Positions 11,211 through 17,491 of a DNA stretch of 20,080 nt are shown here, piece after piece. The notes under the pieces are model-generated. The model was not told the origin of the DNA and ran no database searches. It was given only the letters and a program-made list of their open reading frames with translations. This DNA is from a virus: positions 1 to 20,080 of the IMG/VR virus record IMGVR_UViG_3300030107_002862. One strand, 5' to 3'. The position numbers were made by a program, and so were the translations under genes. Position 1 is the stretch's first letter; each line of letters starts with the position of its first letter.

Positions 11211-13364
11211 TTAACCTTGGAAATCTAGAACTTCATAAGGATCATTTCCTCCTTCACCAGATGGTGCTCCTACAAGTTTGGGTGATGCAGTTTGATTCAC
11301 TCCACCAGTCTTCACTACTATAGGAACCTCTACTATCTGATGATGATGCTTTTCATAACTTGCCTTCTTACTTACAGAGGATATCTTATTACCCATAGAC
11401 TTCCCTGACTTCCCTGATTGAGCAATATTAGATGCTCTATTTTTAATTCCCTTTCCAACATTCTTAAAGAATCCACCAACTTTATCCTTTACATTACCAA
11501 TAGTTTTACCTATCTTTGCTTTCATTTCTGCTCTTTTCTTTGCTGCCTCTTCTTTTTTCCTTGCTTTCTCTTCTTTTTTCCTTGCTTTCTCTTCTTCCTT
11601 TCTTGCTTTTTCTTTTGCTTTTAAATCCTCTGCACTTTCACCAGAAGAAGAACTAGTAGTAGTAGAAGCACCAAGATTAGGAGGAGGACCACTATCTTCC
11701 TTTTCTCCACCTGGTGGGAAGAATGACTTGAATAATAATGGTGCTGTATTCATTGGATTATACAACCATAAAAGATTTGGAATCTCTCTACCCATTAAAA
11801 GAGATAATGGTCCAAGCATTATCTTTGCACCAATTTTAAATACATTCCAAATTTTCTCTTTAAAAGGAACCCATTTAGGTATCCATTTAGGTGGATCTTT
11901 TGGAAAATCAGGTAGCTTAATCTTTGGTATTCCTTCATAGAATCTACCAAACCCACTAGTAACCCAATTGAAAATTGCCTTACCACCCTTAAAGATTCCC
12001 ATCACAGTATCCTTGAGCATCTTGAATGCTGCTTTAGGATCTCTCTTAACTATCAAATGATAAAGTAAGTCACCAACAAACACACCTATTGCTTCACCAA
12101 GAAGTGTACCAACAACAGGAATAGGAATAAAGGTTCCTAATAATCCACCAACAGCAGCACCCATTGTCTTAAAGATTGCTTGTCCTATTGGTTCACCAGA
12201 TAATAAAGAAACAATACCAACAATAACAGGACCAATGATTGGAATCTTACCAAAGATTTTTCCAGCAGTCTTACCAAACATCTTTATCACTGCTCTCTTT
12301 GCAGCTTTCCCAACACCCTTCTTCATTATACTCTTTGCACCTTTCGCTGCACCACCTAATGCTTTCTGACCGCCTTTACCAATTAAATTTTTTCCTATGT
12401 TTAGTAATTTACCACCAACATTCTTTGCAAGATTTGCTCCTTTACCTAATACATTCTTTGCTAGATTACCTGCCCGTCCACCTGTCATCCAGTTAAGTAA
12501 CTTACCTGCCTTTGCAAAGATTCCTTTGATAACATTAAAAGCATTTTTTATATTACCAACAATAGCCTTAAAGATCTTCTGACCTATTATCTTCCATACC
12601 AAGAATCCTGAAATAAGATTCTTTATACTACCCATAAAGGTATCAAATTTCTTTGCACCTTCTTCACCAAAAACACCCTTCACCAAACCTCTACCCATTT
12701 CAACCAGTTTATATCCCCAATCAATAAGTGTTGCTAAACCAGTGATAACAAGTAACGCACCATCAACCATGAAATCTGCCATCTTACCCAAGAAAGGAAG
12801 AATCTTTGCTAGTTGTGGTCCAAACTTAAGCAACCTCACTGCTATCCAACCAAATGCAATATTAATAACAAAGTCCATGATACTGGAAAGTAATCCCTTA
12901 CCTGGTAGATTTAACTTTGGACCTTTAGATGCTGCTTTTGGTTTCTTCTTTTCTAAATCTTTTTCTGCTTTTCCTAATTGTGCTGCTTCTCTTGCTTTCC
13001 TTTCATCATCTAATTTTTTCTTCTGCAAAGCAACAGAGTTTCCTAGAAGACTCTCTACTGATATAACACTGGTCTTTATTTGCAGAACAAGTCCTTGTAG
13101 ATCTTCACCTCCACCAGACTGCTGCTGATCACCACCACTATACTTTTCAATAGCACCAGCAGGACTCTGAACCAATGCTGCTTTTGGTCTGACTACAAGT
13201 GATCCTCCTTTCTCTTCACCACCTTCTTCTCCACCCATCATCTTCTGTGCTGCTGCTCTTCTTGCATCAGTCTTCTTCTTCCTATTCATTAACTTATCGG
13301 TGGCAATCTTCTTTGCCCCTCCTTTTACTGCACCTACTGCTACTTTTCCTAATGCTGCCCACAT
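11211..13364 (-). CDS. Tape-measure-like tail core protein B (717 aa)
   Basis: A basic, largely helical protein. Residues 1-155 are charged and Lys/Arg-rich. Residues 155-280 and 365-440 are hydrophobic, with glycine-rich membrane-like helices (VINIAFGWIAVRLL, IPIIGPVIVGIVSLL, GTLLGEAIGVFVGDLLYHLI). Between them (296-365) is a repetitive Gly/Lys/Ala/Asn region. Residues 580-615 form a highly charged coiled coil made of KARKKEE repeats. The C-terminus is short and polar, with HHH at 673-675. Phage tape-measure proteins combine coiled coil with hydrophobic segments, and this gene sits after the gp26/gp51 chaperones and before the hub. It starts 4 bases after the stop of the similar 816-residue gene. 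It may act with that protein in place of T4 gp29. No catalytic motif was recognised. Confidence 0.6.
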   Translation of the reverse strand: MWAALGKVAVGAVKGGAKKIATDKLMNRKKKTDARRAAAQKMMGGEEGGEEKGGSLVVRPKAALVQSPAGAIEKYSGGDQQQSGGGEDLQGLVLQIKTSVISVESLLGNSVALQKKKLDDERKAREAAQLGKAEKDLEKKKPKAASKGPKLNLPGKGLLSSIMDFVINIAFGWIAVRLLKFGPQLAKILPFLGKMADFMVDGALLVITGLATLIDWGYKLVEMGRGLVKGVFGEEGAKKFDTFMGSIKNLISGFLVWKIIGQKIFKAIVGNIKNAFNVIKGIFAKAGKLLNWMTGGRAGNLAKNVLGKGANLAKNVGGKLLNIGKNLIGKGGQKALGGAAKGAKSIMKKGVGKAAKRAVIKMFGKTAGKIFGKIPIIGPVIVGIVSLLSGEPIGQAIFKTMGAAVGGLLGTFIPIPVVGTLLGEAIGVFVGDLLYHLIVKRDPKAAFKMLKDTVMGIFKGGKAIFNWVTSGFGRFYEGIPKIKLPDFPKDPPKWIPKWVPFKEKIWNVFKIGAKIMLGPLSLLMGREIPNLLWLYNPMNTAPLLFKSFFPPGGEKEDSGPPPNLGASTTTSSSSGESAEDLKAKEKARKEEEKARKKEEKARKKEEAAKKRAEMKAKIGKTIGNVKDKVGGFFKNVGKGIKNRASNIAQSGKSGKSMGNKISSVSKKASYEKHHHQIVEVPIVVKTGGVNQTASPKLVGAPSGEGGNDPYEVLDFQG
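11550..11612 (-). repeat. Three tandem 21-bp repeats in tape-measure-like gene B
   Basis: Units 11550-11570 and 11571-11591 are identical, and 11592-11612 is diverged. Each encodes one seven-residue step of a charged KARKKEE/KARKEEE helix. The near-identity of two copies at the nucleotide level suggests recent slippage within a coiled-coil heptad array. Confidence 0.8.
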
Positions 13365-13368
13365 AATA

Positions 13369-15819
13369 TTATACCGATACTCCTAGTGTTCTAATCTTAC
13401 TCTGCGACCTCATAGTTGAAGCATCAAAGTCTGGAATGCCAGGTGCTGGTTCATTACTTATAGTTGCACCATCACTTGAACTCTGTGCTACCTGTGCTGC
13501 ACCAGCATTTGATACTGGATCTGCAGGAGGATGTATATGATCTACTCTAGGTTTTTGCATATCTGATATCTTATCTTTTGCAAAGTTAAATGCACCCTTT
13601 GCTTTGTTACCTAACCACTTTGCTGCTCTAACTTGTGGCAGTTTATTAATTAAACCACCACCAGCAAATCCTTGAACAAGACCACCACCATTATATCCCA
13701 TAGAAAATCCCTTACTTGGATCAGTAATTCCTCTTAATTGTAAATCTGCTTGGTGTGCTGCATCCCATTTAGCAAATGTTGCTTTTTGTGCATCACTATT
13801 CATAAGAATAGGTAAATACTGATCTAATGGCATATTTACTTTCCTATTAATAACATCCTGTATATTAATATTTTCATATCCAGGAACCTTATTAATCTCC
13901 CCAACAAGTTGCCCCTGATGTTCCATTAAATCAGGAACACCAATAGAAGCAATCATTTCACTAAACTTTTCATAAGATTTATCCTCTACTATCTCACCAT
14001 TTTTTGTCACAATTTTTTCTTCAAATTTATCTTGGGAAACAACTAATGAAGGAGGATTTACTTGCCCTATCTGATATCCTTCTGTTCCATAATGAGACTT
14101 ATCAAATGATCGTGCCTTACCACCACCACTAAAACGAGGAATCATCATATTCATTCCTTTACTACCACCCTTTTTACCACCACCCTTCTGTATCGTTGGT
14201 GCATTTGTTCCACCAGCAGCAGCATTCATACCCTCCATTGTATCAATACCATACTGTTCGACTGCACCCTTGGACATAACAAACTCACCAGGAGTTAGCA
14301 TTGCAGGAACAGTATCCTTATCTCCTGAACCTTGAACTTCTCCACCCTTATTTAAGTTCTGAACCTTTTGTTGACTGTCCTGTGCTCCAGATAGTTCAGG
14401 AGGAGTAGATGCTTTTGATGGATCTCCTTGTGCATCTGATGGCATCTCTTTATCTAAATTAGTATCCTTCCCTACATTTTCAATATCCTTATTCATCCCA
14501 TCAGAACCAGTTTTTAATTCCTTATCAATATCTTTTCCAAATCCAAAGATAGATTTTACTACATTAATTATTTTAGGAATACCCCATGCTAATAATGCAA
14601 TGGTTCCTAGTATCATTCCACCTGGACCTAATAATCCTGGCAAGAATGCCATGATACCTGCCAACAATACAGGCCACCAATCAGCAATGAATTTAAAAAT
14701 ACTAGTAATCTTATCAGTATTTGCTGGATTAGCAAACCATTCAAAGAGTTTAAATGCAATCCTTCCCAAGAATATAGTCTGAATAAAATCCATTATCTGT
14801 CCGAAAATACCTTTGACAGGTGCAAGAATTTTCTCACCAGCAGCTTTAACTGGACCCATTATCTTCTCAAGACCACTCTCTGCTTTCTTTGCATCCTTCT
14901 CTTCATCAGATTTTCTTGCATCTTCTATTGCATCTTCCTGAACTTTAGACTGTCCAGTTAAAGAGTCTTTAATTCTATCAATAGATTCTGCAATTGCTTT
15001 AAGTGGACCTTTTATTCCCTCCAACTGTGACTGCTGACCCTCTCCTTGTGCAGGTGGTTCCGTTACTCCCTGCGGTAAATCTCCTGCTGCTTGGCGTTTT
15101 GCAAGATCAGTAACTTCATTATTAGGTGCAACATTCTCTGCTCCTTGCACAGAAGTTCCTTTCTTAATATCATCTACCTTTATACCTTTCTTTCTTAATA
15201 AAAATCTTCTCTTTTGCTCTGCACCACTTAAATTTTCTCCAGTAACTGCATCCCGACCACTTGTAGTTTCTTGATATTGAGTAGTTTTTTGATGCTCTTC
15301 TCCTGCAGCACTGTCCTGTGCATTTTGTTCTAACCTATCAATTCTTTCACCAATAGTTTCTTGAGAGGTTCCTTTCTTTAGAGATGCAGCACTTATCTTT
15401 TTCTTCTTTGCTACTGGTTTCTTCTTTGGTATCTTCTTTCCTACAGGTGTTGCAGGTCTTTTCTTCTTCTTTGCTGCTGGTTTCTTTTTTGCTGCTGGTT
15501 TCTTTTTTGCTGCTGGTTTCTTCTTCTTTGGTTTGCCTTCACTATCATCTCCAAGTATCTCATCTAGTATCTCATCTATACCTTCTTTCGCTTGCTCCTC
15601 TGCTGCCTGTTGTGCTTCTAATTCACTCAATCTACCTTCAAGACCAAGCACTCTTGCCAAAGTTTTCCTCTGCATTGCAAAGGACTTACTTAATGTCTTA
15701 TGCAATTTAGCAACTTCTATACCTAATCCTTTTTCAAGCCCACCAACTTTACCCTCTAATTTAAAATGAGGGTCATGAGCACTTCTTAAAGATTGTATTA
15801 GGTTATTGCTGCTAGGCAT
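13369..15819 (-). CDS. Tape-measure-like tail core protein A (816 aa)
   Basis: Domains in order are an N-terminal coiled coil (about 24-90), a very basic Lys/Ala/Pro tract (96-148), a polar helical region, a hydrophobic block with membrane-like helices (about 343-425), and a C-terminal half rich in Gly. Residues 492-517 read GGEVQGSGDKDTVPAMLTPG followed by EFVMSKGAV. This is the GG-V-x-G-x-G-x-D-x-x-P-A-x-L-(S/T)-PGE-(F/Y)-V motif common in phage tape-measure and tail proteins. The gene overlaps the end of gp51 by 8 bases (ATGCCTAG), so it is probably translationally coupled; no Shine-Dalgarno sequence is visible. Its position right after the gp26/gp51 chaperones matches the canonical chaperone then tape-measure order. 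T4 gp29 has about 590 residues; here two proteins may share that task. Confidence 0.68.
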   Translation of the reverse strand: MPSSNNLIQSLRSAHDPHFKLEGKVGGLEKGLGIEVAKLHKTLSKSFAMQRKTLARVLGLEGRLSELEAQQAAEEQAKEGIDEILDEILGDDSEGKPKKKKPAAKKKPAAKKKPAAKKKKRPATPVGKKIPKKKPVAKKKKISAASLKKGTSQETIGERIDRLEQNAQDSAAGEEHQKTTQYQETTSGRDAVTGENLSGAEQKRRFLLRKKGIKVDDIKKGTSVQGAENVAPNNEVTDLAKRQAAGDLPQGVTEPPAQGEGQQSQLEGIKGPLKAIAESIDRIKDSLTGQSKVQEDAIEDARKSDEEKDAKKAESGLEKIMGPVKAAGEKILAPVKGIFGQIMDFIQTIFLGRIAFKLFEWFANPANTDKITSIFKFIADWWPVLLAGIMAFLPGLLGPGGMILGTIALLAWGIPKIINVVKSIFGFGKDIDKELKTGSDGMNKDIENVGKDTNLDKEMPSDAQGDPSKASTPPELSGAQDSQQKVQNLNKGGEVQGSGDKDTVPAMLTPGEFVMSKGAVEQYGIDTMEGMNAAAGGTNAPTIQKGGGKKGGSKGMNMMIPRFSGGGKARSFDKSHYGTEGYQIGQVNPPSLVVSQDKFEEKIVTKNGEIVEDKSYEKFSEMIASIGVPDLMEHQGQLVGEINKVPGYENINIQDVINRKVNMPLDQYLPILMNSDAQKATFAKWDAAHQADLQLRGITDPSKGFSMGYNGGGLVQGFAGGGLINKLPQVRAAKWLGNKAKGAFNFAKDKISDMQKPRVDHIHPPADPVSNAGAAQVAQSSSDGATISNEPAPGIPDFDASTMRSQSKIRTLGVSV
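15473..15526 (-). repeat. Three tandem 18-bp repeats encoding a Lys/Pro/Ala tract
   Basis: Units 15473-15490 and 15491-15508 are identical, and 15509-15526 differs at its end. Each encodes a six-residue KKKPAA-type step, producing the histone-H1-tail-like segment at residues 96-120 of tape-measure-like protein A. This is probably a slippage-prone low-complexity array. Confidence 0.85.
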
Positions 15820-15994
15820 TCGCTTGTTGCTGTTTGCGTTTTAGTTCCTCTTCCTCAAGATGTTGTTGGAGAAGACCCACATAGATGTCTCGTTCCCAAG
15901 GCATCATATTTTCAATCTCTGTTAAGCTATATTTATGGTACTGCATCAAGGCAAAATTAAGTTTGAAGTAACTCTCCAAACTCATATGTACCAT
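15812..15994 (-). CDS. gp51: Baseplate hub assembly protein gp51-like (60 aa, possibly made only as a gp26 fusion)
   Basis: A short helical protein. The segment NFALMQYHKYSLTEIENMMP (13-32), followed by WERDIYVGLLQQHLEEEELK, resembles the C-terminal part of phage tail chaperones such as T4 gp51 and the T portion of lambda gpGT. In T4, gp51 is needed for hub assembly but is not a lasting part of the tail. The ATG at 15994 lies 2 bases after the gp26 stop, with no good ribosome site upstream. The frame is also -1 relative to gp26 and open back to about 16033, overlapping gp26. A slippery heptamer at 16003-16009 would create a 301-residue gp26-gp51 fusion (238 + RVA + 60). The protein may therefore be made by frameshifting, by coupled re-initiation, or by both. 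Confidence 0.75.
   Translation of the reverse strand: MVHMSLESYFKLNFALMQYHKYSLTEIENMMPWERDIYVGLLQQHLEEEELKRKQQQANA
15961..15981 (-). promoter_or_regulatory. RNA hairpin downstream of the slippery site
   Basis: On the - strand RNA, GUUUGGAG (15981-15974) pairs with CUUCAAAC (15968-15961) around the 5-nt loop AGUUA. This gives 8 bp including one G-U pair. It begins 21 bases after the end of the slippery heptamer. That is longer than the 5-9 bases usual for classical stimulators, so its role is uncertain. Confidence 0.4.
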
Positions 15995-15996
15995 CG

Positions 15997-16716
15997 CTAC
16001 CCGAAAAAAGATGCTAACCCTTCTAATACCACTTCACTTGTAACTTTAGTATTAGGATTAGTAACTTCAATAGTATGCTTCAATTTAGGCATAGTCTCAA
16101 AGAACTTTTCAATCTCTTTAAACTGTGATGAATTCATTGACTCAAGAAATTCTTTTACTTCTTTCTTGGTACAATCAGCAGTTGCCCATACCTCATCTTC
16201 ATTATAAATTTTATCAATACAAGTAGCAATCAAATCAAAAGATTGATCCATTGCATTCTTCTCATCAAAATCAAAGTTGTTTTTAATGAATTGCTCTAGT
16301 GATGGATACTTCATCTCCATCATCAAATCATCATCTAACTTAATCTGATTGGTATGATCATCATCCTTATTAACCTGAATGGAATCTAGATCAATGAAAA
16401 CAGGAACATTTGTTTCCCCATCATCAGGACAAACAATATTAACTTCTATCTCTTCTCCAACAGACTTACCTCTGATGTTGAGAAATAAGAATTCAATATC
16501 AAATGTAGGAAGAGTTTCTACTTTAATTCCTTTTGTAAGAACACAGTTCTTCAATACTGCTTTAATAGCATTAGTAATTTGTTTTGTATCTTCACTTTCA
16601 AGAGCAATTACAAGAACCTTTTCTTCTTTAACTAGAAATGGTCTATATTTAATACTCTTTCCTGTCGAAGGTAGTTCCAACTCATACGTCGGGGTCGCAA
16701 TCTTTGGTAAAGGCAT
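15997..16716 (-). CDS. gp26: Baseplate hub subunit / chaperone gp26 (239 aa)
   Basis: This matches the T4 gp26 baseplate family as I know it. The N-terminus LPKIATPTYELELPSTGK (3-20) is followed by IKYRPFLVKEEKVLVIALES (22-41). Next come a beta/helix core with a CPDDG motif (96-100), an acidic middle section (115-130), and a helical C-terminal half (W177, then KKEVKEFLES). T4 gp26 is about 208 residues and belongs to the hub pathway; together with gp51 it resembles the tail-assembly chaperone pair of other phages. The last codons read TCT TTT TTC GGG TAG, placing a slippery heptamer just before the stop. AGGA sits 5 bases before the ATG at 16716, and a late-promoter-like AATAAATA lies just upstream, so the start is well supported. 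Confidence 0.88.
   Translation of the reverse strand: MPLPKIATPTYELELPSTGKSIKYRPFLVKEEKVLVIALESEDTKQITNAIKAVLKNCVLTKGIKVETLPTFDIEFLFLNIRGKSVGEEIEVNIVCPDDGETNVPVFIDLDSIQVNKDDDHTNQIKLDDDLMMEMKYPSLEQFIKNNFDFDEKNAMDQSFDLIATCIDKIYNEDEVWATADCTKKEVKEFLESMNSSQFKEIEKFFETMPKLKHTIEVTNPNTKVTSEVVLEGLASFFG
16003..16009 (-). other. Candidate programmed -1 ribosomal frameshift site (T TTT TTC)
   Basis: In the gp26 frame the codons read TCT TTT TTC GGG TAG, so T_TTT_TTC matches the X_XXY_YYZ heptamer in exact phase. After a -1 slip, reading continues CGG GTA GCG ATG, directly in the gp51 frame with no stop. The gp26 stop follows one codon after the heptamer, a typical arrangement. The phase and the open frame are read directly from the sequence; use of the site is inferred. 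Confidence 0.65.
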
Positions 16717-16759: not shown

Positions 16760-17491
16760 CTAACGGTTTAATAATCCAGATGTAATTCCACCAGCAATAT
16801 CTCCAAGTAAATCATTACCAGTTAATCTATCTACAGCATTATTCACAAAGTTACCAGCAGCATTAGCTAATGACTGCTGAAAAGGATCCAATATACTTGT
16901 TGGTCTTTCTGGTCTTAATCTAGTATCAACTACATACCGAATATATGTCATTCCAACACTACACTTTAACAAATCTGATCCATCATATGAAACAGGCATT
17001 GAAGTTATCTGAAGAGGATAACTCTTTATAAACTGATATGTCATTGCATTATCATAGTCTTTCTCAAATTTAGTTACTTCCAATCCAGCAACAGTATATG
17101 TGTCTGGATATTTGACTCTATAAGCATATGAATTAGACTTGGCAGCATTCTTATCTTCACTAGTAATAAATGATATCCAATCCTCAAAGAACTTGATAGG
17201 CAAATAATTTTTAGCATCAACATAGAATGTTAAATCTATTCTATCATCATATATTCTTCTATACGCATGTCTCTCAGTTACTCCATGAAAATCATTATCA
17301 ATCTGGTGTGTTGCAAGAGAAGATCCTGGAAGACTTGCTTCTGAACACATCAACTGAATCTTACCCTGCCTATTCTGCCCTCTATATTTTGAAAGACCAG
17401 AAGGAATATCTAATCCAATTTCAAAATGAGAAGTTAATGCAGGTGAAAGTAAATTTGATTTAATGTCTGAGACTGACCTTTTAATAGGCAT
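16760..17491 (-). CDS. Tail-tube-fold baseplate protein, gp54-like (243 aa)
   Basis: The protein has the pattern of the contractile-tail tube family (T4 gp19/gp48/gp54). A start such as SPALTSHFEIGLDIPSGLSK (16-35) is followed by QLMCSEASLPGSSLA (46-60), as in the tube-protein beta-hairpin region. Next come a strand-rich DDRIDLTFYVDAKNYLPIKF (82-101), FEDWISFI (102-109), YRVKYPDTY (124-132), and a final strand pair (PLQITSMPVSYD, MTYIRYVVDTR). The C-terminal 40 residues are Gly/Asn/Leu-rich and may be amphipathic. At 243 residues it is larger than the tube subunit gp19 (about 163) and smaller than T4 gp54 (320). Its position next to gp26 and opposite gp4/gp48 fits a tube initiator on the baseplate. 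The fold is fairly sure; assignment as gp54 is an inference. Confidence 0.7.
   Translation of the reverse strand: MPIKRSVSDIKSNLLSPALTSHFEIGLDIPSGLSKYRGQNRQGKIQLMCSEASLPGSSLATHQIDNDFHGVTERHAYRRIYDDRIDLTFYVDAKNYLPIKFFEDWISFITSEDKNAAKSNSYAYRVKYPDTYTVAGLEVTKFEKDYDNAMTYQFIKSYPLQITSMPVSYDGSDLLKCSVGMTYIRYVVDTRLRPERPTSILDPFQQSLANAAGNFVNNAVDRLTGNDLLGDIAGGITSGLLNR

Follow-up and report, generated by a model that had tools for sequence, protein, structure and literature searches.

A probable -1 ribosomal frameshift joining gp26 and gp51 into one tail assembly chaperone gene in a marine T4-like phage

The window analysed here is the whole 20,080-nucleotide stretch of IMG/VR virus record IMGVR_UViG_3300030107_002862. 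Its minus strand carries a tail tube gene, then gp26 and gp51, and directly after these a tape-measure-like gene (Table 1), the last identified from weak profile hits together with its position. The original prediction had placed a tape-measure-like gene next after gp51 and this order was seen. The start of the tape-measure-like ORF lies inside the gp51 end, and in most relatives the next ORF likewise overlaps or abuts the end of gp51; such overlaps, similar in most relatives, suggest translational coupling.

Table 1. Features of the gp26-gp51 region and the predicted peptides that would report on the two products (positions are those of the window).
Feature	Position	Strand	Remarks
Tail tube protein gene, upstream of gp26	16760..17491	(-)	PF23849, E=5e-14; phrog_45
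gp26-like 0-frame ORF (TAC-N, short form)	15997..16716	(-)	239 aa; PF12322 T4_baseplate, E=2.3e-76; phrog_150
SD-like GAAGGG	16018..16023	(-)	8 nt upstream of slippery heptamer
Slippery heptamer T_TTT_TTC	16003..16009	(-)	invariant in 81/81 close loci
0-frame stop TAG of gp26	15997..15999	(-)	one codon past slip site
-1 frame extension (TAC-C), 63 codons plus stop, gp51 included	15812..16003	(-)	phrog_634, E=1.2e-29
gp51 ORF if called from its own ATG (60 aa)	15812..15994	(-)	probably no separate gene
Predicted stimulatory stem-loop	15950..15992	(-)	outer 4-bp stem +11..+14/+50..+53; inner 11-bp stem +19..+29/+35..+45; 5-nt loop
816-aa tape-measure-like ORF	13369..15819	(-)	ATG overlaps gp51 end at 15812-15819 (AATGCCTAGC)
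Predicted tryptic marker peptide of gp26-gp51 junction			VTSEVVLEGLASFFR
Predicted C-terminal peptide of gp26 short form			VTSEVVLEGLASFFG (...LASFFG)

The 0-frame gp26 protein terminates in ...GLASFFG*, and reading of the minus strand confirmed the 3' end of the gene as TCT TTT TTC GGG TAG, with T_TTT_TTC in the correct phase at 16009-16003. The -1 frame runs through CGG GTA GCG ATG into gp51 and is open upstream inside gp26 to approximately position 16033, and the predicted fusion has the 301 residues originally claimed, 63 of them from the -1 frame.

A weakness conceded by the original prediction was that a T run may arise by chance in AT-rich DNA. Survey of the CDSs in the window located 28 in-phase X_XXY_YYZ heptamers, among which T_TTT_TTC occurred only at the gp26 end, and the gp26 heptamer was the sole one of the 28 that extended a gene's 3' end into a conserved protein. 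The -1 extensions from the others were 0-51 residues long and low-complexity or unrelated, and these heptamers were rejected as frameshift sites because their extensions carried no meaning. The tape-measure-like ORF also holds a lysine-rich tandem repeat at 15464-15522 (18-bp unit, KKKPAA), where two in-phase A_AAA_AAG heptamers give low-complexity -1 extensions of 45-51 aa that look accidental, and a 717-aa ORF at 11211-13364 contains a 21-bp tandem repeat of about four copies in a Lys/Glu-rich stretch (11527-11614).

Close relatives comprised 80 IMG/VR loci with gp26 71-84% identical, giving 81 loci with the window included. In every one of them a single codon separated T TTT TTC from the stop and gp51 lay in the -1 phase, and this invariance of heptamer, spacing and phase argues against a chance T run. 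The alignment of relatives that had been proposed as a check thus returned a retained T_TTT_TTY and a constant -1 phase. The Phe codons at the slip site were TTT in 72/72 and then TTC in 72/72, TTC being the minority Phe codon in the window (43/217), while the other conserved Phe columns of gp26, used as an in-gene control, were mostly a TTT/TTC mix with a major codon at 57-94%, two such columns being 100% TTT. As Phe-Phe can be encoded otherwise, protein constraint leaves the fixation of TTT TTC without explanation. Counting against a gp26-gp51 frameshift is the finding that U_UUU_UUU and U_UUU_UUA are weaker slip sites than A_AAA_AAG in E. coli (PMC5009743).

Codon choice upstream of the heptamer was also constrained. 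The Glu-Gly codons at this position were GAG GGN in 62 of the 81 close loci, GAA GGG in 18 and GAA GGA in one, indicating that a GAGGG/GAAGGG core is kept 8 nt before the heptamer. GAG was used at this Glu site in 56/72 in comparison to 7-39/72 in other Glu columns, and GAA occurred there almost only with GGG (Fisher p=5e-12, uncorrected for relatedness). E. coli dnaX has a comparable layout, with an SD-like element upstream, an X_XXY_YYZ heptamer and a hairpin downstream.

Folding of the window RNA downstream of the slip site gave z = -3.28 against dinucleotide shuffles and -3.50 against codon-preserving shuffles. A hairpin with a 5-nt loop 21 bases downstream had been reported from the sequence, and it is real; its stem, given as 8 bp, was too short, as a 9-bp core begins at +21 and the stem reaches 11 bp from +19. 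The long spacer that had been listed as a weakness has largely disappeared, since the hairpin of most relatives begins 10 nt past the slip site and the outer stem of the window occupies the same place. Over the 81 loci the RNA from +6 to +53 had a mean z of -2.41 against codon-preserving shuffles, 69% with p<0.05, and 41 of these loci, shuffled from another codon pool, gave z -3.09; control windows ranged from -0.06 to -1.08 for six in gp26 and reached -1.72 for one other in gp51. These values, together with the upstream codon choice, point to RNA signals that are under selection.

The commonest element was a 5-bp hairpin at +11..+24, with 86% of cells paired and changes on both sides in all five pairs, and both its pairing and its covariation were beyond all 500 shuffles, counts that relatedness inflates. 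Tree-corrected covariation of pairs 12/23 lay in the expected direction (3.3 vs 0.1 of 5 independent pairs) in a comparison so underpowered that significance was unreachable. Of 79 distinct sequences, 47 had the complete short hairpin and another 14 the complete long one (9/9), no sequence having the two together, and a single conserved hairpin for all loci was therefore rejected. The two types share bases +21..+24, which partly forces their exclusion, and a tree-corrected test of it was not significant; a gp26 tree, many of its branches weakly supported, required at least 16 changes of hairpin type. Strong hairpins were present in P-SSM2, S-CAM9, S-PM2 and S-SM2, and no significant downstream hairpin was found in syn9, HTVC008M, Ochrobactrum OC, Cronobacter S13 or ZPAH1, indicating a probable lineage-specific aid to slippage and no requirement for it. 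Features at the cyanophage site that are possibly new are the SD-like element and the changing hairpins.

A profile of the C-terminal part served to score more distant junctions, from annotated phages and further contigs. Fifteen of the annotated phages had contributed part of this profile, and their matches are hence not independent, whereas contig loci L098-L132 stood outside it; L100, whose gp26 has an internal stop, and the truncated L107 were neither scored nor counted. The gp51 part was in the -1 phase in every scorable distant junction, including those of Kyanoviridae, a pelagiphage, Straboviridae outside the T4 group, Menderavirus and Ackermannviridae, so that a variable phase between gp26 and gp51, which would have spoken against frameshifting, was looked for and not encountered in any scored junction. 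T_TTT_TTC or T_TTT_TTT accompanied this phase in nearly all distant loci, among them S-PM2, P-SSM2, syn9, S-N03, HTVC008M, Ochrobactrum OC, Cronobacter S13, Stenotrophomonas Mendera, Aeromonas ZPAH1 and Vibrio D525 and V05. The exceptions were in slip sequence and not in phase, as Vibrio phage D494 and Ackermannviridae phage phiA8-29 both have CTT TTC (L091:3206-3223 and L092:3227-3244), which by its sequence would need single-tRNA slippage. Searching viral_contigs with the proteins of Vibrio D494 and Vibrio D525 yielded no loci. Neither Cronobacter phage S13 nor Aeromonas phage ZPAH1 has an annotated gp51, and the open -1 frame (L088:3211-3375 and L090:3205-3369) fills the unannotated gap from gp26 to the next gene.

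T4 and Enterobacter EnC15, both of the T4 group, lack gp51 after gp26. The original prediction was right that T4 genes 26 and 51 are separate, and they lie on opposite strands; its treatment of gp51 as merely a C-terminal piece did not hold, as T4 gp51 is a homologue of the whole fusion. In profile alignment T4 gp51 covered fusion columns 15-285, continuing past the slip point (98.3%, E 1.2e-14); T4 gp26 covered columns 12-241 and terminated at that point (99.5%, E 2.7e-23). Family homology thus pairs the short form with T4 gp26 (PF12322) and the fusion with T4 gp51, T4 encoding the two forms by separate genes. Both T4 proteins are listed as hub assembly chaperones (PMC3004832). Cyanophage gp51 was described as about 20% as long as other gp51 proteins and as missing the N-terminal ~200 residues of the T4 protein (Sullivan et al. 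2010, PMC3037559), a shortness that is explained if gp51 is the second half of a fusion.

Public records annotate gp51 as a separate CDS, and it could in principle be a gene of its own, with stop-start coupling or re-initiation allowing translation from an ATG at +9 or +18 and a Phe-Phe constraint on the protein keeping the T run. The +9 ATG (15994 in the window) is present in 50 of the 81 close loci and the +18 ATG in 77, so that some independent initiation of gp51 is possible. However, an SD-like 4-mer preceded the +9 ATG in 0/50 of the close loci having it, as expected from the original remark that this ATG lacks a clear ribosome site, and preceded the +18 ATG in 8/77. Two of the 81 have no ATG within 45 nt; among close relatives, L063 has none for gp51 at all. 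A search for an insulated gp51 with its own ribosome site, a further finding that would have opposed the original prediction, recovered no conserved start or ribosome site. Many of the distant loci scored also lack an ATG, GTG or TTG near the junction able to start gp51, and their -1 frame remains free of stops upstream past the slip site. No route to gp51 translation other than frameshifting is evident there, and this suggests that the start codon is dispensable. Since Phe-Phe can be written without TTT TTC, and a free 60-residue protein does not account for T4 gp51 as a full-length homologue of the fusion, we consider independent translation as the sole route to gp51 very improbable. Transcriptional slippage, with bases omitted or inserted by RNA polymerase at the T6 run, would agree with the homopolymer found in all close loci, but the run is fixed at six T and then C in each of the 81, with no drift towards lengthening. 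The -1 phase and the geometry for re-pairing of two tRNAs are likewise kept, and the SD-like and downstream RNA-structure signals suit slippage of the ribosome, making this explanation very improbable indeed.

A -1 frameshift at T_TTT_TTC producing a gp26-gp51 fusion, a tail assembly chaperone system of the lambda G/GT type (TAC-N/TAC-NC), is with high probability the arrangement at this locus, judging from the compared sequences. By this mechanism gp26 and gp51 would be one gene with two products. Most ribosomes would halt at TAG and release the 239-residue short form (TAC-N), while at T_TTT_TTC, where tRNA-Phe would occupy the P site as well as the A site, a presumed minority would slip back one base, both tRNAs re-pairing on UUU, possibly assisted by the SD-like GAAGGG 8 nt upstream and the downstream stem-loop. 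Slipped ribosomes would read on through gp51 and complete the long form (TAC-NC) of 301 residues. If lambda G/GT is a guide, the tape-measure protein may be coated by chaperone copies of which many are short and few are long, the C-terminal domain recruiting tail-tube subunits.

A structural comparison is consistent with this function. The AlphaFold2 model of gp26 (mean pLDDT 85.8) matched the HK97 tail assembly chaperone 2ob9 first among PDB entries, with a Foldseek probability of 0.87, an E of 0.75 and a modest VIA-align result of Z 7.9 and 4.1 A over 84 residues, followed by two uncharacterised proteins (Z 7.8 and 7.3) and then Z 4.9. Sequence relatives in the PDB were absent for gp26 and none was significant for gp51. 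This predicted likeness in fold falls short of the usual threshold; it is supportive, not conclusive, and together with gene order it favours the resemblance to lambda gpG/gpGT that was originally suggested.

Database entries for T4-like marine phages and for several Straboviridae give gp51 as a separate gene with an arbitrary start (syn9 and HTVC008M, for instance) or omit it (Cronobacter S13, ZPAH1). Recognition of gp51 as the second half of one chaperone gene would be an annotation fix for a core tail gene in abundant ocean viruses, and these loci also constitute a natural set in which the slip site is constant while the stimulators change. We suggest tentatively, with rather more doubt than confidence, that the slip site of marine cyanophages is held constant as its stimulator keeps changing, in a dnaX-like arrangement of a fixed SD-like element and a hairpin switching between mutually exclusive registers that would tune the short:long chaperone ratio, other T4-like lineages managing without a hairpin and T4 with two genes.

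The abstract of the 2022 study by Vladimirov and colleagues reportedly names T4 genes 26 and 51 and describes frameshifting as conserved in several T4-like groups. As cited in PMC10885494 and PMC12846349, Vladimirov, Gautam and Davidson (2022, Virology 566:9-15) identified the tail assembly chaperone genes of T4-like phages, some of which have a short gene accompanied by a long fused one (PMC10885494), with polyT slip signals in TAC-N genes (PMC12846349). This kind of system, in which related T4-like phages make the tail assembly chaperone by frameshift, is already known according to these citing accounts, and the link between T4-like phages and the G/GT strategy, which the original prediction had also proposed, had been published in 2022. 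The genes are probably the same as gp26 and gp51 here.

Among known systems, lambda G/GT is alike in that ribosomes slip by -1 towards the 3' end of a small gene that precedes the tape measure, yielding a short and a long chaperone that both bind the tape measure, the T part recruiting tube protein (PMC5009743); the window phage differs in its slip site T_TTT_TTC and its N part of ~240 residues. The chaperone genes of Vandenendeviridae and Andersonviridae likewise conserve a -1 frameshift, its polyT motif lying at the TAC-N end, and are often misannotated, but their motif is GTTTTT (PMC12846349); the likeness drawn here is one of frameshift layout. E. coli dnaX has the same three-part layout as a mechanistic analogy only, being a host gene that slips on A_AAA_AAG. 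T4 gp26 and gp51 are homologous to the short and long products respectively, and differ in being encoded by two genes on opposite strands without a frameshift.
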